Below are positions 3,042 through 63,378 of a stretch of DNA of 64,000 nt, in pieces. The position numbers and the translations under genes are program-made. This DNA comes from Alphaproteobacteria bacterium (GTDB lineage: Bacteria > Pseudomonadota > Alphaproteobacteria > ATCC43930 > CGMCC-115725), in contig JAJPHB010000162.1 in NCBI GenBank assembly GCA_021325525.1, positions 1 to 64,000 of the forward strand. The letters are read 5' to 3'. Under the pieces are notes generated by a model, which did not search any database, was not told where the DNA came from, and saw nothing but the letters and a program-made list of their open reading frames with translations. Position 1 is the first letter of the stretch. Each line of letters opens with the position of its first letter.

Positions 3042-3066
3042 GGTGCGAGATTCGGCCAGGATCCCC

Positions 3067-6000
3067 ATGACCACCCCCTCGCTCTTCCACCCCGCGGTCG
3101 CCGCCTGGTTTGATCGCAACTTCGCCGGCCCGACGCCGGCGCAGGCGGAGGCGTGGCCGGCGATCAAATCCGGCGAGCATGTGCTGATCGCGGCGCCGAC
3201 CGGCTCCGGCAAGACGCTCGCCGCCTTTCTCGCGGCCATCGACGGGCTGGTGCGCGAGGCGCTCGCCGGTACGCTCGGTGAGGAGACGCGGATCGTCTAT
3301 GTATCGCCGCTGAAGGCGCTCTCGAACGACATCCAGAAGAACCTCGAAGCCCCGCTCGCCGGCATCCGCGAGACGCTGCGTGCGCAGGGTCTGCCCGACA
3401 TCGCCATCCGGAGCTGGGTGCGCACCGGCGACACGCCGCCGGGCGAGCGCGACCGCATGCGCCGCTCGCCGCCGCATATCGTCGTCACGACACCGGAATC
3501 GCTCTACATCCTCCTCGGCTCGCAGTCGGGCCGCGCCATGCTGTCGACGACGCGGACGGTGATCGTCGACGAAATCCATGCGGTAGCGCCCAACAAGCGC
3601 GGCTCGCATCTCGCGCTCTCGCTGGAGCGTCTCGCCGCGCTCTGCCGCGGCCCGCTGCTGCGCATCGGCCTCTCGGCGACGCAGCGTCCGATCGAGGCCG
3701 TGGCCCGCTTTCTCGTCGGCCTCGATGAAAGCGGCCAACCCCGCCCGTGCCGCATCATCGACACCGGCCATGTCCGGGCGCGCGATCTTGCCGTCGCGGT
3801 GCCCGGCGCGCCGCTCGAAGCGGTCATGTCGGGCGATGTCTGGAAGGAGGTCTACGACCGCCTCGCCGCGCTCATCTCGGAGCATCGGACGACGCTCATC
3901 TTCGTCAACACCCGGCGCATGGTCGAGCGGGCGACGCGGGCGCTCTCGGAGCGGCTCGGCGAGCAGCAGGTCGCCGCCCATCACGGCAGCCTCGCCAAGG
4001 AGCAGCGCCTCGATTCCGAGCAGCGCCTCAAAGAAGGGCGGCTGCGCGCCCTCATCGCCACCGCCTCGCTTGAGCTCGGCATCGATATCGGCGATATCGA
4101 CCTCGTCTGCCAGCTCGGCTCGCCGCGCTCGATCGCCGCCTTCCTCCAGCGCGTCGGGCGCTCGGGGCACGCGGTCGGCGCCGTGCCCAAGGGCCGGCTC
4201 TTTCCGCTGTCGCGCGACGACCTCGTCGAATGCGCGGCGCTGCTCGACAGCGTCCAGCGCGGCGAGCTCGACCGCCTCGCCATTCCCGAGCGCGCGCTCG
4301 ATGTGCTGGCGCAGCAGATCGTCGCCGAGGTGGCGGCGCGCGAATGGAGCGAGGACGCGCTCTTCGCGCTGCTCCGCCGCACTTGGCCCTACCGTGACTT
4401 GCCGCGTGAGGATTTCGCGGCCGTCCTCACCATGCTGGCGGAAGGCTATGCGAGCCGGCGCGGCCGGCGCGGCGCGCTCATCCATCACGACGCCGTCAAT
4501 CATCTGCTGCGCGGCCGGCGTGGTGCGCGCCTCACGGCGCTCACCTCGGGCGGCACCATCCCCGACACCGCCGATTACCAGGTCCTGCTCGAGCCCGAGA
4601 ACCAGTTCATCGGCACGGTCAATGAGGATTTCGCCGTCGAGAGCCTCGCCGGCGACATCTTCCAGCTCGGCAACGCCGCCTACCGCATCCTCCGGACCGA
4701 GCGCGGCGTCGTCCGCGTCGAGGACGCGACGGGAATGCCGCCTACCATTCCCTTCTGGCTCGGCGAGGCGCCGGGTCGCAGCGACGAGCTCTCGCGCTCC
4801 GTCTCGCGGCTGCGCGCTGAGGCGGCTGTCTCGCTCCAGCGCGACCCCGGCGGCAGCGGCGTCGCGCGCGAGCTCGCCCGCACGGCCGGGCTCGACGAGG
4901 CGGCGGCGCGCCAGCTCGCGGAGTATCTCGCCTCGGGTCGGGCGGCGCTCGGCTGCCTGCCGACGCAGGAGACGATCGTCTTCGAGCGCTTCTTCGACGA
5001 GGCGGGCGGCATGCAGCTCGTCATCCACTCGCCCTATGGCAGCCGCATCAACCGGGCATGGGGATTGGCGCTCCGCAAGCGCTTCTGCCGCAAGTTCAAT
5101 TTCGAGCTGCAGGCGGCCGCGACCGAGGACAATATCGTGCTGTCGCTGACGACGGCGCACAGCTTCGATCTCGCCGAGGTCGCGCGCTACCTCCATGCGG
5201 CGAGCGTCCGCTCGCTCCTGACGCAGGCGCTGCTCGACGCGCCGATGTTCATCACGCGCTGGCGCTGGGTGGCGGGCGTGTCGCTGGCGCTGCCGCGCTT
5301 TCGCGGCGGCAAGAAGCTGCCGCCCCAGCTCGCCCGGATGAACGCCGAGGACCTCATCGCCGCGATTTTCCCCGACCAGATCGCCTGCGCCGAGAATCTC
5401 GTCGGTGAGCGCGAAATCCCGGACCATCCGCTCATTCGCCAGACCATCGCCGATTGCCTCGAAGAGGCGATGGACTGCGCCGGCCTCGAGCGCCTTCTCG
5501 CGCGTCTCGAAGCTGGCGAGATCAAGGTGGTGGCGCGCGATTTGACCGAGCCCTCGCCGCTTGCTCTCGAAGTCCTGTCGGCGCGTCCCTATGCCTATCT
5601 CGACGACGCGCCTCTCGAAGAGCGCCGGACGCAGGCGGTCATGAGCCGGCGCTGGCTGGCGCCGGAGGATGCGGCCGATCTCGGCCGCCTCGACGGCGAG
5701 GCGATCGCGCGGGTGCGCGCCGAAGCCTGGCCTGAGGCCGGCAATGCCGACGAACTCCACGACGCTCTGGTCTGGCTCGGCTTCATCGCCGCCGACGAGG
5801 CCGAGGCGCAGCCCGGCTGGAGCCTCTGGCTCGCCGCCCTCGCGCGCGACCGGCGCGCTGCCTTGCTAAGGCGCGCGGACGCCGCGATCTGGATCGCTGC
5901 CGAGCGCTTGCCGCTCTTCGAAGCGCTGTGGCCCGAGGCGAGGCTCGACCCGGCGATCGTCGCGCCGGACTCTCATCGCCGAGCGGAGCTCGCGCCGGAG

Positions 6001-7395
6001 GAGGCGCTGGCCGAGATCCTGCGCGGCCGACTCGAAGGGCTGGGGCCCGTCACCGCGACGGCGCTGGCGGCGCCGCTCGATCTCGCCGCGCGCGACCTCG
6101 CGGCGCCGCTCGCCGCTCTCGAAAGCGAGGGGTTCGCCATGCGCGGGCGCTTCACGCCGGGAGCGGCGGCGGAAGAGTGGTGCGACCGCCGGCTTCTCGC
6201 CCGCATTCATCGCTACACGGTGAAGCGCCTGCGCGCCGAGATCGAGCCGGTGGCGGCGCGCGACTTCCTGCGCTTCCTCCTCACTTGGCAGAAAGTCGAG
6301 GCGGAGAGCCGCATGAAGGGTCCGGACGCGCTCGAAGCCGTCATCGCTCAGCTCGAAGGCTTCGAGGCGCCAGCCGGCGCCTGGGAAAGCGAAATCCTGC
6401 CGGCGCGTCTCGCGGGCTACGAGCCGGCTTGGCTCGACGATCTCTGCCTTGCCGGGCGCGTCGTCTGGGCGCGGCTGAAGCCGCGCGAGCCGCGCCTCGC
6501 CGGCCCGCAGCGGAGCGCGGCGCCGGTCCGGACGACGCCGATCACCTTTCTCGCGCGGCGGCATGCGCCGCTCTGGGCGGCGCTCTCGCCCGCCCGAGAG
6601 GAGAGCGTGCCCAGTCCCCGTGCCCAGGCTGTCCTCGACTGCATCCGCGAGCAGGGCGCCCTGTTCTTTGACGAGATCGTCGACGGCGCCGGCCTGCTGC
6701 GGCCGCAGGTCTAGGAGGCCTTGGGCGAGCTCGTCGCTCTCGGCCTCGTCAATGCCGACAGCTTCGCCGGGCTGCGCGCGCTCCTCGTGCCGGCCGAGAA
6801 GCGCCGAACCCTGGCGCAGCGCCGCTCGCGCGCTCTCGGCTTCGGCATGGAGGATGCCGGACGATGGACGCTCGCGCGCCGCGCCCGCCAGCGCGGCCCG
6901 CTGCCGGGCGAGGCCGAGGCGACCGAGCATCTGGCGCGCTGCCTCTTGCGCCGTTACGGCGTCGTCTTCTGGCGCCTCCTCGAGCGTGAAGCCGGCTGGC
7001 TGCCGCCCTGGCGCGACTTGCTGCGCGTCTACCGGCGCCTTGAGGCGCGCGGCGATATTCGCGGCGGCCGCTTCGTCGCCGGTTTCTCCGGCGAGCAATT
7101 CGCCTTGCCGGAAGCGGTCGGGCTTCTGCGCGACGTCCGGCGCCGCCCCGAGGCGGGCGCGCTCCTCTCGCTCTCGGGGGCCGACCCGCTCAACCTCGTC
7201 GGCATTCTGACGCCGGGCCCGAAACTGGCGGCGCTGACGGGCAATCGTCTGCTCTTCCGCGACGGCCTGCCCCTCGCCCTGCTCTCCGGCGGCGAGGTGA
7301 AATTCCTGGAGAACGTGCCGGCTGCTGACGAATGGGCCGCGCGCAAGGCATTGCGGCGCGGCGCGGTGCCACGAGGGCTGGTCGGCATCGCCTGA
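3067..7395 (+). pseudogene. lhr: Lhr-family ATP-dependent DNA helicase, interrupted by an in-frame TAG
   Basis: The gene encodes a large Lhr-type superfamily 2 helicase, a DNA-repair helicase family. The N-terminal RecA domains show APTGSGKT (Walker A), VDEIHAV (DEAH-like box), SATQRP and [10 protein letters not shown]; winged-helix and Lhr C-terminal regions follow. ATG 3067 is used because the helicase homology begins there. The frame stops at TAG 6712-6714, just after GAGLLRPQV, and continues in the same frame with EALGELVALGLVNADSFAGL to a natural TGA at 7393-7395. Family members have a Glu at the stop position, so a single GAG-to-TAG change explains it. Without the stop the product is about 1,442 residues, normal for the family. 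The first 1,215 residues could still be made as a truncated helicase lacking the C-terminal domain. The cause may be mutation or sequencing error. Confidence 0.88.
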
Positions 7396-34240: not shown

Positions 34241-34561
34241 CTCTCCCTCTTGCCTCAACTGGCGCGATCCGCCGATCTTGCCATCATATGGCGCGACCCT
34301 CCCGTACCGGAAGGCGAGACGTCCGGGCGATTGGAATATCGCCCCGTTTTGCAGCGCGTCCTCTGCGCGCGATATTCGGCAGAGACTATTTCCGCTGGAT
34401 GCAAGGACTGTCGGTAGATTTTACAGATTTGCGAGATGGTCGGGAGATGAGCGGGCTAAGGTCTTGTGAGGGCTTGATCGCGGGAGCTGGTACGGAATTT
34501 GCAAAGCTCTGTTGAGCAGCTTCTGCAAGCTGCATCGGGGATTTTGTCAAGGGAGTCGCAA
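34241..34561. other. Intergenic region before the PEP-CTERM gene
   Basis: This is about 320 bases between divergent genes. It is less GC-rich than the flanks, especially at 34370-34560. An AGGGAG ribosome site lies at the right end, 8 bases before ATG 34562. I see no convincing coding frame and no clear -35/-10 pair. Confidence 0.5.
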
Positions 34562-35302
34562 ATGAGAATCTTCCGGCGGCGTCTCGGCATGGGCGGCCTG
34601 GCGACAGCCGCGGCAGGCTTCGGCGCAGCGCTCACTCTTCTCGCACCGTCGTCTGGCGCGACGACCTTCGACACGACCCCGTCCTGGGACGGGTCTGCCT
34701 TCATCTCTTCTTGGGGGCCGGGTGGTACTCAAACATATGGCGAGACCTTTATCGCGCCATCCGACAGCACTTTGCAGAGCTTCACCTTCTATCTTCGCTC
34801 GGACTCCGGGACGACCACCTTCCAGGCCGATGTCTACGCATGGTCGGGCAATCTGAAGGGCGGCAACTCGCCGCAAGGCGCGACGGGACCAGCGCTCTTC
34901 ACCAGCCCCAATATGTCACTCACCGCGAACGGAAGCTTTCAGACGGTGACCGTGAACACGGGCGGCGTCAGCTTGACGCCGGGGCATGCCTATGTGGCGC
35001 TGCTCACGACCTCGGATCCCGCCTCGATCCTGGCCAATACGGGAAGCTTTCAGAGCTGGGAGTGGGGCGACACTCAGCTTACCCATGTCGCCAATGATGG
35101 CGGCGGTGGTTTCAATTTTTACAACAACGCGACCTCGTCCGAGCTCAACACGACGAGCTGGGACGATTTCAGCGATTTCGGCGACCTCGCCTGGAAGGCC
35201 GTGTTCGGCCCGTCCGTGGCGGTTCCCGAGCCCACGGCGCTCAGCATCATCCTTGTCGGGCTCGCCGGCCTCGGTTTCGCTCGTCGCCGCAAGAGCGTTT
35301 AG
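34562..35302 (+). CDS. Secreted PEP-CTERM sorting-domain protein
   Basis: This 246-residue protein has an N-terminal signal peptide (residues 1-33, with LATAAAGFGAALTLLAPSSG). The mature domain is Ser/Thr/Gly-rich and of beta-sandwich type. The C-terminal sorting signal is complete: a VPEPTALS motif, a hydrophobic segment (IILVGLAGLGF) and a basic tail (ARRRKSV). Such proteins are cut and processed by exosortase at the inner membrane and travel to the surface in EPS-forming bacteria. An exosortase gene lies about 17.5 kb away but is broken by a stop codon. It has its own strong terminator, so it is probably monocistronic. Confidence 0.88.
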   Translation: MRIFRRRLGMGGLATAAAGFGAALTLLAPSSGATTFDTTPSWDGSAFISSWGPGGTQTYGETFIAPSDSTLQSFTFYLRSDSGTTTFQADVYAWSGNLKGGNSPQGATGPALFTSPNMSLTANGSFQTVTVNTGGVSLTPGHAYVALLTTSDPASILANTGSFQSWEWGDTQLTHVANDGGGGFNFYNNATSSELNTTSWDDFSDFGDLAWKAVFGPSVAVPEPTALSIILVGLAGLGFARRRKSV

Positions 35303-43434: not shown

Positions 43435-43658
43435 CAGCGATTGGCTCCATGCAATTCAGAGCGGCTTCGTCTATCTTAGAGCGGCCGCACCGGCAACGGC
43501 ACCCGGTTCATGACTTTGCCGGCGCGAACAGGCAGGCATATTATGGGGCGGTGATCCTAACTGATTGTTTACGCTTCGCCGATTTATCGTCTGAAATTCA
43601 TTCGCCAGCAGTGACCCAGCAGCGGACCGCATTTGTGTCGTGACATACCAGGGCCGGA

Positions 43659-46450
43659 GTGTTTGACATTTTGCTCTGGAGCAGTCGTAAGCCTCGTGGA
43701 CATATCCCAAAAATAGGAACAGATGTCCTGCAAAGGGAACGGTCCGATAGCCGGCTTGACATTCTGCGGGAACGGGCCGAACGATTGCCGTCTCGCCGCT
43801 CTGCACGGATCACAGGCCTTATTGCATTGGGTCTGCTCACCGTTCTCACCGCGACCACTAGCCCTGCGGCGGCGGATCGTCTCGTTGTTTCTGAACGGGC
43901 GGGGATTATCGAAGCAATTTACCAGCTTGCGCAACCGAAAACGGGATGGGCAACGCTCTCGGCCGATTGGACCGATTCGCTCGGGCGTCTGGTCGATCAT
44001 TCCGTGTGGCGGGTCAAACTCAACCAGCGCTCCCTCATCAAGTGGCCGCTCGACAAAAGGCGCGCCGTCACGGAACGGAATTTTCTGCGCGTGCGCCTCT
44101 TCTTCGACCGTGCGGGTGCACGCGGCGCTAAGATTCGCGCGGCACGCGAAGAGCGTACGTCGTTCACGATCATCCCGCTGCGGGATCCTTGGACGGACTA
44201 CCAACTCATCATGTGGCATGCGAGAACCGCGCGATCCTACGAGGTTCTTCGCGAACACGGCTTTACCTCCGGGAAAATATATGGCGTAAGCCGATCCGGA
44301 GGCGCGCCGTCCGACACCGAAGCCGCGGCGCTCCTCGACAGCAACTTGCGCTGGTACGTCGAGAACATTGCGACGGATTTCTATTCAGCTTATCACCGGT
44401 GGACGCCCGGCCGCCCAAAGAATTGGCTCTTCCTGGCGGCCAAGCAGCTCTACAAGGAAAAACCGAACTCATCCGCTGCGTTCATCCGGCAGCCGAGCCT
44501 TGCAGATCCGCTTTGGTTAAGGGAAATCAGCCGGCGTCTTCATCGCGTCGTGACTTCGCAACGTGCGTTTCACCCGCTTTATTACAGTCTCGGGGACGAG
44601 ACAGGGATCGCCGACCTCACCGCGTTTTGGGATTTCGATCTTTCCGGTTATTCGCTGCAGGATATGCGCAGCTGGCTGCGCCAGCGCTACGGCAGTCTCC
44701 GGTCCCTGAACGCGGAATGGGGATCGCATTTTCGCCATTGGCAAGCCGTTACTCCAATGATGACGTCCGAGGCCTTCCTGCGGGTAGATGAAAATTTCGC
44801 TGCTTGGTCGGATTTCAAAGAGTGGATGGACGTCGCGTTCTCCCGCGCGCTGAGAATCGGCACAGACGCCATCCATCGAGCCGATCCGAACGCTCTCTCC
44901 GCGATAGAAGGAGCGCAGATTCCCGGCTGGGGCGGTTACGATTATTCGCGGCTTGCGGGCGCCGTCGATCTGATGGAACTCGACGATCTCGACGGCTCCG
45001 TCGAGGTCTCGCAATTGCAGAATCCAAAGATCGTGCTGATTTCGACCCTCTTTCAAGGCGCTCCAGAGCAGGGGCGCGCCATTTGGCGCGAATTGCTCCG
45101 TGGATTCCGCGGCGTGATCATTTGGGATCCGAAGCAGGAATTTATCGACGACGATGGACGGCTCGGGAAATGGGGCCGCACCACTCTTCCGGACCTCGAA
45201 GAGATTCGCCGAGGCGTCGGCGCCCTGCTGATCAACAGTCGTCGCAAGCCCGATGGTGTGGCTATCCTCTACTCGCAGGCGAGCATGCGCATCGGATGGC
45301 TGCTCGACCGGCGGTCGGAGGGAGTGTCCTGGATTGACCGCGATGCCGAGTCCGAAACGAAGGACAACAGCATCCGATCCGCGATCCGACACGATGTTCG
45401 CCTAGCTCATGGGGCCGGATTCCAACCACGCTTCCTTCCCGCATCGTCCATAGCGCGTGGCGCGCTTCGCTCCGGACAGTATTCGATATTGTTCCTTCCG
45501 CACGCCATCGCGCTTGCGCGAAATGAAGGGGATGAAATCCGCCACTTCGCGGAGCGCGGCGGCACTGTCGTCGCCGATGTCCGGCCTGGTATTTTCGATG
45601 AGCATGGACGCAAATATCAGCATCCGCCGCTGGGCGATCTGTTCGGCAAAGGGGCGAGCGCGGCCCCAATCCGCACTCGTCTCGGCCATGGGCGCGCGAT
45701 CCTTCTCGGCGCGAACTCGTCCGATGCCGTGCAGGGCCTGGCGGCGGAAGAGCAGCTCGTCTTTGGTGACCGGTCGCGCCCCATATTTCCCGTGACCGAT
45801 CCTTCGGGATCGCCTCTAAGAGGCATTGAATTTTATCGCTACCGGAATGGGCGCGTCACTTTGCTGGCGCTGCAGCGGAACGATTCGCGACAAGCGGCGG
45901 ACCTATCGGAAACCGTTTCGTCGGAGTCCTCGACGGTCGAGAAGGCTATTCTTCACTTGCCCTCGACGGCGTTCGCCTACGACATCCGCACGGGCGAGGC
46001 GCTTGGCCGCGGCGAGCAAGTCGATTTGCGCCTCGATCCGAGTCGCCCGACGCTTCTCGCAGTGTCGCCCGCACGATTGAGTGCGCCATGCCTCTCTGTT
46101 CCGCACAAAGCAATTGTTGGCGATCTGGTGCCGATCCGCATAGAGCTTCGCGACCGTCTCGCCGAAGCTCGGGTGGTTCATCTCGATGTCATCGATCCAC
46201 GCGGCAGGATCGTCTCTATTCCGGCAACATCGTGGGGCACGGCAGGGCGATCACGCGCTGGTTGCCTTTCGCGTTTAACGAGGTGCCTGGAACTTGGACC
46301 ATCGTGGTCCGCGATGTCTTGTCTGGGCAGATCGCCGCGACGCGTCTCGAGCTGATTGCCCGATCTCTTGAAGTTGCGGTACCGCAGCCTTTCGCTTGGC
46401 GGCAGGACCAGCTTCATCATGATCTCCGGAGGAAAGCGTGCGGTGGTTAG
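43659..46450 (+). pseudogene. Secreted GH42-like glycoside hydrolase, frameshifted near the 3' end
   Basis: The frame opens at GTG 43659, but the signal peptide (ITGLIALGLLTVLTATTSPA) begins about 50 residues in, so a later start is possible. The body resembles beta-galactosidase-type GH42 enzymes, with YYSLGDETGIADLTAFWDFD (candidate acid/base Glu) and SLRSLNAEWGSHFRHW. At about 46213-46220, after DPRGRIV, the protein jumps to a meaningless tail ending at 46355. The sensible continuation, YSGNIVGHGRAITRWLPFAF and GTWTIVVRDVLSGQIAA, is in another frame to TAG 46450. A one-base deletion after GTC fits. Only the terminal beta-sandwich is lost, so the enzyme may still work. It may trim the EPS. 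Confidence 0.72.
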
Positions 46451-52100: not shown

Positions 52101-53660
52101 ATGGATATCAAGACCGCCGAGTTGATCGCGTCTCCAAAGACTCGTGCGGTGGTGTCACGTTCCGCATTTCCTCGGGTTCACTTGGCCATTGCGTGCATCG
52201 TGATCTTGCACACCGCCCTCCTCGGGCTTTATTGGCGGCCAGTGGTGGCCGCCGTACAGGTCTGGTACGATTCGTGATCATATAATCATGGCTTTCTGAT
52301 TATTCCGATTACGCTCTACCTGGTGTGGGAGCGCCGGGCGCAGCTGCGCGTATCGCAGCCTCAGGCCTATTGGCCGGCGTTGTTCCTGCTCGCCTTATCC
52401 GGTGCCGCGTGGCTTGTTGCCGAGATGATGGGAATAATGGAAGCGGAGCAGTTCGCGATTCTCTTTGGGATACAGGGCATTCTGCTTTCGATCCTCGGTA
52501 AGGCCATTTACCGCACGCTCCTCTTTCCGTTTCTCTACTTGTTCTTTCTTGTTCCGACTGGTGACTTTCTCACGCCATCGCTACAGAATTTTACCGCAAA
52601 CTTCATCGTGTACGGTCTAAAGTTGGTGGGTATTCCGGTCTACTCTGATGGCATCTTCATCTCTATTCCCACCGGAAATTTCGAAGTTGCCGAAGCTTGC
52701 GCCGGGCTCCGATTCCTGACCGCCACGCTCGCCTATGGGTTGGTCTTTGCCGATTTTGCCTATACTTCATTGAGGAAGAAGTTGGTTTTCTGCGCGCTTT
52801 GCTTCGTCACGCCGATCATCGCGAACGGCCTACGCGCTTACGGCATTGTACTCATCGCATATCTCAGTAACAACGAGCTCGCGACAGGTATCGATCACAT
52901 TGTCTATGGATGGATTTTCTTTTCGTTCGTGATGCTTATGCTGACGGGAATCGGCATGCTCTTTCGCGACACGAGGGAGCTACCGCGGCGATCCACCGCT
53001 CCGGCCGCGGCCGGCTCGGTCGCTGCCTTGGCAGCCATCGTAGTCGGCGCGCTCATCCTGATAGCGCTACCGCGGGCTTACGCCGCCTATTTGGACAGGC
53101 CGGATGCGATCCGCTCGACACATGCGCTCACTCTCCCCGCGGTGAATGAAGCCTGGTCGAGCATAAGTGGGACCGCCTCTGACTGGCAGCCGAGCTTAGC
53201 TGGACCAGATCGCTATGCGGAGGGCACCTATGTGAGCGCCGTCGGGAAGGTCGATCTCTTCGTGGGCTATTACGATTATCAGACGCATGGTAAGAAATTG
53301 GTGAGCAGCGCCAATCGCGTCGCAGATGCGCCCGGCTGGACGAGCGGGCGCTGGTTCACGAGCGAAGTCACGGTGGACGGCCGGCGCGTCCGCGCCGCGG
53401 CCACGCAAGTGTTCGACGGCGGCCGCAAGAGACTTGTCCTCTCATGGTACTGGGTCGATCACCACTTCGTCGGCAATCCGTTCATGGCTAAGCTTTTACG
53501 CATAAAGGGACAGCTGTTCGATTCCTGGCGCCCCGCCGCAGTCATTGCGGTATCGACCGAGATAGGGGACTCGACTGAGGCAGCCGAGGAGCGTCTGGCC
53601 CGCTTTGTTACGGATTTGCCGGGACTCGACGCGCTATTGACGGCAGCGGCCGATCGCTAA
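52101..53660 (+). pseudogene. xrtA: Exosortase with C-terminal EpsI domain, interrupted by an in-frame TGA
   Basis: An intact frame would give 519 residues: an eight-helix exosortase and a C-terminal EpsI domain (from about 330, with GTYVSAVGKVDLFVGYYDYQ). The catalytic triad is present: Cys in AEACAGLRFL, Arg in NGLRAYGIVL, His in GIDHIVYGW. ATG 52101 has a GAGGAAG ribosome site 8 bases upstream. The frame stops at TGA 52275-52277, between VWYDS and SYNHGFLIIPITLYLVW, which is the conserved N-terminal exosortase motif. One C-to-T change in a CGA Arg codon would explain it. Re-initiation at GTG 52323 would lose the first helices and the NHGF motif. Exosortases process PEP-CTERM proteins such as the one at 34562. 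The lesion may be real or a sequencing error. Confidence 0.85.
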
Positions 53661-53749: not shown

Positions 53750-55696
53750 ATGTGCGGTATCGTCGGGATCATTGACTGGCAAGGGCGGCGGCCGATCGAT
53801 TCCGAGCTTGTGCGGCGGATGACGGAGAGCCTCGCCCATCGCGGTCCCGACGGGAGCGGCTATTATTACGGCCCAGGTGTCGCAATGGGTCATCGGCGTC
53901 TTGCCATTATCGATGTCGCGCACGGCCAACAGCCGCTCTTCAACGAAGACCGAACCGTCGTGGTGTCGTTCAACGGCCAGATCTACAACTATCGCGAGTT
54001 GATGCGCGACTTACAAGCTGCCGGCCATCATTTCGCGACGCATTCAGACACCGAAGTGATCGTTCACGCTTGGGAGGAGTGGGGGCAGCGTTGCGTCGAG
54101 CGATTTCGCGGTATGTTTGCTTTCGCGCTCTGGGACGAGAATCGACAGGAGATGTTTCTCGCTCGGGACCGCCTGGGCAAAAAGCCGCTCTACTACGCCG
54201 AGATTGGGGGCGGGTTTGTTCTCTTCGCATCCGAGCTGAAGGCGCTGCTCATCGATCCTCGTATCGAGCGCAAGCTCGATCCGACCGCCATCGAGGATTA
54301 TCTCGCCTATGGCTATGTTCCCGAGACGAAATCGATCTATTACAGCGTGAAAAAGCTGCCGCCGGCGCATTCCATGACAATCAGGCGCGGTCGCGGCGTG
54401 TCCCGAGCCCGGGCATATTGGGACATCAGCTTCGGTACTCGCTCGAGAACCGATCTCAACGACGCCTGCGAGGAACTCGTCGGACGCCTCGGCGACGCGG
54501 TGGAGATGCGGCTGATCTCCGAGGTCCCGCTCGGCGGCTTTCTATCGGGCGGCGTTGATTCGAGCGCCGTTATCTCACTGATGGCCGAGCGCTCGGGCCA
54601 ACCTGTCAATTCGTTTGCGATCGGGTTCAAGCAGACGGCATATGACGAATCGCGCTATGCTGAGGCCGTTGCCGCGCGCTGGGCCACGCGGCACCGGTCT
54701 TCGTTGGTGGATGCCGAAGACTTCGCCCTCGTGGACCGCCTTGCCCGCGTCTTCGACGAGCCATTCGCCGATTCTTCGGCCATCCCCACATACCAGCTGT
54801 GCAGTGTGGCGCGTCGGGAGGTCACAGTTGCCTTGTCCGGGGACGGCGGCGACGAGCTCTTTGCCGGATATCGGCGATATCGATGGCATGCGGCAGAGGA
54901 ACGCGTGCGACAGCTCCTTCCAGGTCGGCTGCGGTCAGCCATTCTCGGTCCGCTCGCCCATGCCTATCCGCAGCTCGACTGGGCTCCGCGGCCGTTGAGG
55001 CTGCGGGCGACCTTAGGCGAGCTGGCGGTCGATTCTCTCGATGGGTACTTCCATAACGTGTCGGTGCTCGACGATGAGATTCGACGGCGTCTGTGTGCAC
55101 CAGCATTCCGCCGCGAGTTGCAGGGCTATCATGCCAAGGAATACCTCGCCGCCTATTATAATGCAGCCCCTGCCGACGACCCGGTCGGACGCGCGCAATA
55201 TACCGACCTCAAGACATACTTGCCGGGCGATATCCTGACAAAAGTCGATCGCACCAGCATGGCTTCTTCACTCGAGGTGCGCGCCCCCATCCTTGATCAT
55301 GTGTTCGTCGAGTGGGCGGCGGGGTTGCCGGCATCGTTCAAGCTGCGCGGGGCGGTCGGCAAGTATGTGCTAAAAAGAGCTCTGGAGCCGCGGCTGCCTC
55401 GGGACATTCTCTATCGGCCCAAGCAGGGCTTCTCGGTTCCCCTCGCGGACTGGTTCCGGGGTCCCTTGCGACGGCGCGTCAGGGAGGCGCTCAACGCGCC
55501 TCGACTGCATGCGATGGGATGGTTTGACCTCGATTACCTCAGGCACGCATTCGAGGAGCATGCCAGCGGCCGGCGCGACTATGCCTCCCTCATCTGGTCG
55601 ATGCTGATGCTCGACGCGTTTTTGCGCGACGTGCATGAGAGCGCGCCGGCAGCGCCGCCGACAGCGGAGGTCAGTCTTGCGAGCGCCGGGTCATAA
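53750..55696 (+). CDS. asnB: Asparagine synthase-type amidotransferase (exosortase-locus type)
   Basis: This 648-residue enzyme has an N-terminal class II glutaminase domain starting MCGIVGI with catalytic Cys2, plus AHRGPDGSGYY and SFNGQIYNYRELM. A synthetase domain with FLSGGVDSSAVISLMAE follows at about residue 267. It should transfer ammonia from glutamine to an acceptor carboxylate. Members of this length next to exosortase form a known subfamily (exosortase A-associated amidotransferase), thought to amidate the EPS or its uronic acids. The gene ends overlapping the convergent FemAB-like gene by 26 bases. Confidence 0.9.
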   Translation: MCGIVGIIDWQGRRPIDSELVRRMTESLAHRGPDGSGYYYGPGVAMGHRRLAIIDVAHGQQPLFNEDRTVVVSFNGQIYNYRELMRDLQAAGHHFATHSDTEVIVHAWEEWGQRCVERFRGMFAFALWDENRQEMFLARDRLGKKPLYYAEIGGGFVLFASELKALLIDPRIERKLDPTAIEDYLAYGYVPETKSIYYSVKKLPPAHSMTIRRGRGVSRARAYWDISFGTRSRTDLNDACEELVGRLGDAVEMRLISEVPLGGFLSGGVDSSAVISLMAERSGQPVNSFAIGFKQTAYDESRYAEAVAARWATRHRSSLVDAEDFALVDRLARVFDEPFADSSAIPTYQLCSVARREVTVALSGDGGDELFAGYRRYRWHAAEERVRQLLPGRLRSAILGPLAHAYPQLDWAPRPLRLRATLGELAVDSLDGYFHNVSVLDDEIRRRLCAPAFRRELQGYHAKEYLAAYYNAAPADDPVGRAQYTDLKTYLPGDILTKVDRTSMASSLEVRAPILDHVFVEWAAGLPASFKLRGAVGKYVLKRALEPRLPRDILYRPKQGFSVPLADWFRGPLRRRVREALNAPRLHAMGWFDLDYLRHAFEEHASGRRDYASLIWSMLMLDAFLRDVHESAPAAPPTAEVSLASAGS

Positions 55697-61220: not shown

Positions 61221-62310
61221 TAATGCTGGTTTGAATCAGCAATTACGTACAGAAACATCAGGTTCTTTGCGGCGCTCACTGTATTCGTCGCCCACGTCTC
61301 GGGTTCGCGGTTCACTGGCGGGCTCTTCTGGCAGTTCGAACCATATGGTGATGAGGCCGTCGATGTCTTCTTCGTGCTCTCCGGCTTTGTCATTGCATAT
61401 GTGACCGACCAGCGCGAGACCTCAGCAGCTACATACACTATCTCGCGCTTAGCCCGAGTCTATTCGGTATCTTTGCCGGCAATGATTGCCACATTCACCC
61501 TCGATACAATCGGCCGTACATTGCGGCCCGATCTATATTCTGAGGCCTGGGATTATGTAGCAGAGGACAGATAACTCAATTTCTGACGATTCTAATCTTC
61601 GTCAATCGACTTTGGTGGCGGCATATCACTCAAGGTTCCAATGTATCTTATTGGTCTCTGAGTTACGAGGTTTGGTATTATGTAATATTCGGGCTCATGA
61701 TTTTTGCGCGCGGACGATGGCGGACGATTGCGCCTGTTGCAGCAATGTGCGTCGCTTGATCCAATATTCTTTCCCTTTTTCCGTTGTGGCTGCTCGTAGT
61801 GGCGACTTACCGCCTTTCTGACCGATGCGCAATCGGCAAGACAGCGGGAGCAGGTTTGTGCACAGGCGCGCTGGGCAGCATACGAAGCATGGGCTTGGCA
61901 TCAGCATATGTTCACTGACGCGGTGCCTAGCTCCTGGTTCCACCGATCTCAAATACTTGCAGAAGTACTTAGTATCATTGGCGTTTTCAGCACATCTGGT
62001 TGGCTTCGGAGCCGTTTCATCTCTGTTTGGTCCTGTTTTAAATCGACTTTCCCACTTTATAAGGTGGACCGCAGGAGCGACATTCACTATTTATTTGTTT
62101 CACGTACCCCTGTGCCAGCTCCTTACTGTTCTCGCCCCATGGTCACCATCTTCTTGGTATACGCGCCTGGTTATGTTCCCCGGGGCGCTGGCCATGATGT
62201 TCGTGATCGCCGAACTGACAGAGCGTCGCAAGCAGGTATGGCACCGTCTGTTCTCGGGCCTGTTTGGACTGAAATCGCAACGGGAAGCAGTTGTAACACC
62301 AGTTCAGTAA
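61221..62310 (+). pseudogene. Degenerate acyltransferase-3 gene
   Basis: Pieces of an acyltransferase-3 membrane protein lie in order. The first (from about 61245) has YRNIRFFAALTVFVAHVSGS and FFVLSGFVIAYVTDQRE and stops at about 61574. The second has WSLSYEVWYYVIFGLMIFAR and stops near 61760. The last has HFIRWTAGATFTIYLFHVPL and ends at 62310. No start codon leads the first piece, and at least two stops or shifts separate the rest. It pairs with the intact copy 24 bases downstream, so this is an old or decayed tandem duplicate. Confidence 0.85.
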
Positions 62311-62334: not shown

Positions 62335-63378
62335 ATGCGACCGACCACTTCCACCTACCTCGATCTACTGCGCTTCAACGCGTCTGGTCTGGTTTTTCTG
62401 TCGCATCTGTCGATCGCGCAATTGAGCGGCGGATTCCTTTGGCAGATCCAGCCCTATGGGCACAGTGCCGTTATCGTGTTCTTCGTGCTTTCCGGTTATG
62501 TGATCAGTTTCACGGCCGCGACGAAGGACAGAACGCTCGAGCAGTATGCGATCAACCGACTAGCCCGGCTCTATTCGGTCGTGATCCCCGCCATAGTCCT
62601 CGCCTTCCTGCTCGATCGCATCGGCATGGCGGCTAGTCCCGATGTCTATCTGCTGGACCGCGAGACCGCGCCCTTATTGCGCGTCGGCGCTGCTGTGAGT
62701 TTCCTCAGCGAGAGCTGGCTCGCTGACATTCCGCTCTTCAGTGACGATGCCTTTTGGTCGCTGCCCTACGAATTTTGGTATTACGTAATCTTCGCTGGGT
62801 TCACTTATTTTGCAGGCAGGCGGCGAGCGCTCGTGTGCGGAGCCGCTATGCTGATTGCCGGGCCTAAAATCCTGCTGCTCTTGCCAACCTGGCTCTTCGG
62901 TGCGGTTGCGTTCCGCATATCGCGATATGTGGTATTGTCTCCTCGCCTCGCTTGGTCGTTGTTCATACTTTCGCTCGGAGCGGCCGTTGCGATCGGGTTG
63001 CGACCGCGCGTGACCGTCAATCTCAACCTATTTCCGCCCAACTACAGCCCATCCGATTATGCTTTGGCCGCCGCGATTGGGGTCAACATCATCGCCGCGA
63101 ACGGGATCGCGCTCTGGTTTGGCGGGGTCGATCGACTGATCCGCTGGACCGCCGGTTTTACGTTTTCGCCCTATCTCTTTCATTTACCTTTGCTGCACCT
63201 TTTCAGTGCGTTCATCCGCTCTGAAAACCCGCTAGTCCGCGGTCCGCTGATCGGCAGCGCTACGGTGATCAGCGTCATTTTCCTGGGATTGGTGACCGAG
63301 CAGAAAAAGCAAGTCGTGAGACGGTGGATCATCCGGTCGGTAACAGTCCTTAAGGGGCGCTTCGCCGCGCTCCACTGA
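62335..63378 (+). CDS. Acyltransferase-3 family membrane protein
   Basis: This intact 347-residue protein has about ten membrane helices. Key stretches are YLDLLRFNASGLVFLSHLSI, FFVLSGYVISFTAATKDR, WSLPYEFWYYVIFAGFTYFA and IRWTAGFTFSPYLFHLPL. Such enzymes add acetyl or other acyl groups to polysaccharides at the membrane. It is the working counterpart of the decayed gene just before it, and would decorate the EPS. Confidence 0.9.
   Translation: MRPTTSTYLDLLRFNASGLVFLSHLSIAQLSGGFLWQIQPYGHSAVIVFFVLSGYVISFTAATKDRTLEQYAINRLARLYSVVIPAIVLAFLLDRIGMAASPDVYLLDRETAPLLRVGAAVSFLSESWLADIPLFSDDAFWSLPYEFWYYVIFAGFTYFAGRRRALVCGAAMLIAGPKILLLLPTWLFGAVAFRISRYVVLSPRLAWSLFILSLGAAVAIGLRPRVTVNLNLFPPNYSPSDYALAAAIGVNIIAANGIALWFGGVDRLIRWTAGFTFSPYLFHLPLLHLFSAFIRSENPLVRGPLIGSATVISVIFLGLVTEQKKQVVRRWIIRSVTVLKGRFAALH

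Follow-up and report, generated by a model that had tools for sequence, protein, structure and literature searches.

The window, a 64,000-nucleotide stretch of an alphaproteobacterial contig, carries an interrupted gene for an exosortase A (XrtA)-EpsI fusion that extends from 52101 to 53660. The frame opens with an ATG at 52101 behind a good ribosome-binding site, GCCGAGGAAGTAACTCAG (core GAGGAAG), and runs to a TAA at 53658-53660 with a single interruption, the TGA at codon 59. The part from codon 75 on scores 263.1 bits against the TIGR03109 exosortase A model (cutoff 208), and the frame downstream of the TGA scores 102 bits against the TIGR02914 EpsI model (cutoff 42.8). The frame and these scores confirm the original prediction of an in-frame TGA in an otherwise exosortase-coding frame with a good ribosome site. 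When the TGA is read through, PF09721 matches the translation with 233 bits over profile positions 3-253, spanning both sides of the TGA, and the relatives align both upstream and downstream of it. The frame is more than a chance occurrence because both the PF09721 match and the relatives' alignment cross the TGA. As it stands, the frame does not encode XrtA as one uninterrupted translatable protein. Table 1 lists the features of the locus.

Table 1. Features of the interrupted xrtA-epsI frame, its partners and other damaged genes on the contig (window coordinates).
Feature	Position	Strand	Evidence
5' part of the xrtA-epsI frame, 58 codons: first transmembrane helix (TM1) and the following helix	52101..52274	+	ATG with GAGG site; predicted (AlphaFold2) helices 20-43 and 45-57
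In-frame TGA (codon 59) in the loop that leads into the YNHGFLI helix	52275..52277	+	Predicted (AlphaFold2) loop; variable alignment column, 0/80 relatives with a stop
Remaining XrtA domain and EpsI domain, open and conserved, ending in TAA	52278..53660	+	TIGR03109, TIGR02914, alignment
First in-frame start after the TGA (GTG), an unlikely restart site	52323..52325	+	Lacks a Shine-Dalgarno-like sequence
PEP-CTERM protein, one of eight likely substrates	34499..35302	+	PF07589, 31.7 bits; tail VAVPEPTALSIILVGLAGLGFARRRKSV
Intact XrtA/PEP-CTERM system amidotransferase, next gene	53750..55696	+	TIGR03108, 958 bits (cutoff 816.9)
lhr-like helicase gene, in-frame TAG at 6712-6714	3043-7395		Same-genus homologue has Glu; 69% identity continues beyond
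Large exported glycosidase-like gene, frameshift near the 3' end (about 46217-46247)	43659..46450	+	Alignment to homologue L112
Acyltransferase-3 pseudogene, frameshifts and in-frame stop	61257..62310	+	Three tblastn pieces in three frames, 9e-42

The alignment shows the catalytic Cys, Arg and His intact and downstream of the TGA, where they had been predicted to lie. Exosortases are marked by the motifs Cys-x-Gly, Asn-x-x-Arg and His-x-x-x-Gly (Haft et al. 2006, PMC1569441), and the corresponding pairs C200/G202, N242/R245 and H266/G270 are invariant in the 43 alignment rows, which include the studied protein. The read-through frame has nine hydrophobic stretches and agrees with the about eight membrane helices of an exosortase only if the TGA is read through. 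For the exosortase domain translated through the TGA, AlphaFold2 gives a confident helical model (pLDDT 90.8), with helices at residues 20-43, 45-57 and 64-76. Codon 59 is predicted to fall in the loop between helices 45-57 and 64-76, adjoining the YNHGFLI motif. Searches for solved structures by sequence and by fold returned no credible relative.

The partners of the enzyme are present. Eight proteins in the genome exceed the PF07589 PEP-CTERM cutoff, equal to the median count reported by Haft et al. 2006 (PMC1569441). Their tails are clean and consist of PEP or A/S-EP followed by a hydrophobic helix and then a cluster of Arg residues. The amidotransferase gene follows xrtA in the same order in a same-genus relative. 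The eight clean tails together with the intact amidotransferase suggest that the PEP-CTERM system was functional until very recently, or still is. The search for a second exosortase that the original prediction had called for was run on the assembly and found none, either with PF09721 or with the broader exosortase/archaeosortase family model TIGR04178. Apart from the interrupted xrtA, the assembly has no gene of the exosortase or archaeosortase family. The original prediction had also held that a dead exosortase would strand the PEP-CTERM protein at 34562. This was understated, as eight such proteins would be affected by the loss of this sole exosortase.

The interruption is peculiar to this genome among the sequences compared. 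The best 80 named relatives, at 31-48% identity, all have a sense codon aligned to the TGA, encoding Thr (38), Ser (14), Glu (9), Asp (5), Lys (4), Ala (4), Pro (4) or Val (2). The column is variable overall (T/S/E/D/P/R and others), and the homologue from the same genus (53% identity) is open with a Pro at this position. A survey that sampled the class evenly (385 genomes) found the family in 52 of them. A stop within the exosortase occurred in one of the 54 survey matches, the studied gene, and the other 53 were open. The relatives are thus open at the site, as expected for a nonsense pseudogene (80/80 named relatives and the 53 other survey matches). The interrupted protein retains all 18 invariant residues and deviates at 3 of 52 conserved columns, a value within the range of its relatives. 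The intact constraint downstream of the TGA therefore means either that the loss is recent or that the base is wrong.

Three other genes on the same contig are damaged: the lhr-like, the glycosidase-like and the acyltransferase genes of Table 1. The alignment of the glycosidase-like gene to its homologue stays in frame 3 to ~46247 and then resumes in frame 2 at 46217-46354 with residues 861-906. The several independent lesions of the acyltransferase remnant cannot be explained by base error, and real decay in the island is concluded on this basis. The remnant directly precedes an intact relative (62335-63378), and the pair looks like a tandem duplicate with one copy dead. The GC content falls from ~0.69 to 0.56-0.63, and GC3 from 0.87 to about 0.70, between window position 43600 and the end of the contig (74.9 kb), over an exopolysaccharide gene island. 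The GC3 of xrtA, 0.69-0.71, equals that of its low-GC island neighbours; towards the left of the window most genes have a GC3 near 0.87.

On balance, the evidence favours the view that xrtA, the sole exosortase gene, is a real null allele of recent origin and that the low-GC exopolysaccharide island around it is decaying; we consider this reading somewhat better than evenly supported. We infer that living cells of the population do carry the TGA. A genuine nonsense mutation would have inactivated the only exosortase of the genome within an exopolysaccharide/PEP-CTERM island that appears to be undergoing gene loss. Recent loss is indicated because the 18 invariant residues are kept, the three deviations lie within the relatives' range and GC3 matches that of the neighbours. 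Translation would yield a 58-residue stub comprising a membrane helix followed by a second, short one, and the exosortase would not be made. According to the exosortase model of Haft et al. 2006 (PMC1569441), unprocessed PEP-CTERM proteins stay anchored in the inner membrane. On this established model, the eight PEP-CTERM proteins would retain their C-terminal membrane anchor and would not be cut and released. The same paper reports that methanolan production in Methylobacillus sp. 12S was unaffected when epsH was disrupted, which argues that loss of an exosortase can be tolerated. The interruption is ordinary in kind: ordinary gene loss is the likeliest cause, a sequence error is less likely, and no new decoding mechanism is called for.

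The leading alternative is that the TGA is a single-base error of sequencing or assembly, or arises from a strain mixture, and that the xrtA of the living cell is intact. We regard this as less likely, though by no means negligible. The assembly is a draft of 172 contigs, scored 100% complete, and xrtA is otherwise without defect and fully constrained, a pattern equally expected from one wrong base. The PEP-CTERM substrates and the TIGR03108 amidotransferase are intact, and the TAG in the conserved lhr-like gene is a second isolated nonsense codon on the same contig, as a low-quality contig might show; some wrong bases on this contig are therefore possible. Against a general error stands a count of stops in domains from other parts of the genome, 150 of ABC transporters and 48 of short-chain dehydrogenases (SDR). 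This count replaced a codon-usage nonsense detector that was run on 361 kb of the genome and proved insensitive (13% and 1% in simulation). None of the 198 domains contained a stop, and the assembly is therefore not riddled with nonsense codons. The domains amount to ~32,000 codons as estimated from coordinates, and the rule of three puts the upper bound of the stop rate at about one in 10,700 codons (95%), which corresponds to a probability of at most about 5% for a chance stop in a given 519-codon gene. The acyltransferase remnant likewise lies beyond what a wrong base could produce.

Low-level read-through of the TGA by a near-cognate tRNA would supply some full-length exosortase and make the allele leaky or even regulatory. 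The intact downstream constraint and the retained substrates are compatible with such a supply, and the product would be a normal protein because the TGA column tolerates many residues, so that the inserted amino acid would be acceptable. However, the stop is conserved in none of the 80 named relatives or the class survey, the RNA following the TGA has no unusual structure (z -0.58), and many neighbouring genes end normally in TGA. Read-through is accordingly improbable. The more specific proposal that a tolerated, leaky TGA throttles the exosortase, with very low and perhaps condition-dependent PEP-CTERM release in a system still under selection, is decidedly more doubtful.

Restart of translation at GTG 52323, yielding an N-terminally shortened working enzyme, is very improbable. 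This GTG (codon 75) is the first in-frame start after the TGA and leaves the three catalytic residues beyond it, but no ribosome site precedes it or any of the next five in-frame starts. The restart product would be devoid of TM1, the next helix and His63 of the NHGFLI motif, which is invariant in the 43 aligned sequences. With His63 upstream of it and no ribosome site, this start is unlikely to yield a working enzyme. The original prediction would have been overturned had all relatives started at 52323, and the comparison showed that none of the 80 named relatives starts there. It had left three fates open for the gene. Recent death is the best supported, a misread base is less likely, and re-initiation is disfavoured by the missing ribosome site and the absence of a relative that starts at the same place.

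Decoding of the TGA as selenocysteine or another residue, through recoding or a changed genetic code, has almost no likelihood: an in-frame TGA as the one defect of a gene might suggest it, but no SelA above cutoff was found in the genome, and of three tRNA-Sec matches over the cutoff the two checked are tRNA-Ser and the third scores the same as one of them. Selenocysteine, which depends on SelA and tRNA-Sec, was rejected as far as a draft scored as complete allows. There is no sign of recoding, since the TGA column is variable and never holds Cys or Trp in the relatives. A code change was rejected because TGA terminates many of the neighbouring genes and the code is therefore standard.

The locus resembles the XrtA (TIGR03109)-EpsI (TIGR02914) PEP-CTERM/EpsH system in its family score above cutoff, its Cys, Arg and His residues and motifs, its adjoining TIGR03108 amidotransferase, the surrounding exopolysaccharide genes and its eight PEP-CTERM proteins. 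It differs in that the frame is cut by a TGA at codon 59, which occurs in no relative examined. The single premature stop, the conserved remainder and the broken genes nearby are those of an ordinary bacterial nonsense pseudogene or recent null allele, whereas the lesion here strikes the only processing enzyme of the system while all substrates remain. Our literature search found no report of an interrupted exosortase with its substrates retained. If the base is right, the genome would represent a natural exosortase knockout with eight unprocessed substrates, observed at an early stage of the system's loss. Such a genome would permit asking what becomes of PEP-CTERM proteins that have lost their sole sorting enzyme, and would bear on the order of decay, with the enzyme lost before its substrates. 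Should the base prove wrong, the case becomes a warning that one draft genome is not enough to declare a sorting system lost.

Two further observations concern other genomes. One genome of the same family has five PEP-CTERM matches and no exosortase found by PF09721; it is a further genome with apparent orphan substrates, or its draft missed the gene. In genus g4, two species (L019 and L020) carry a frame resembling EpsH-EpsI in which a single TAG falls between query residues 2 and 442. These are probably separate epsH and epsI genes that happen to share one frame.
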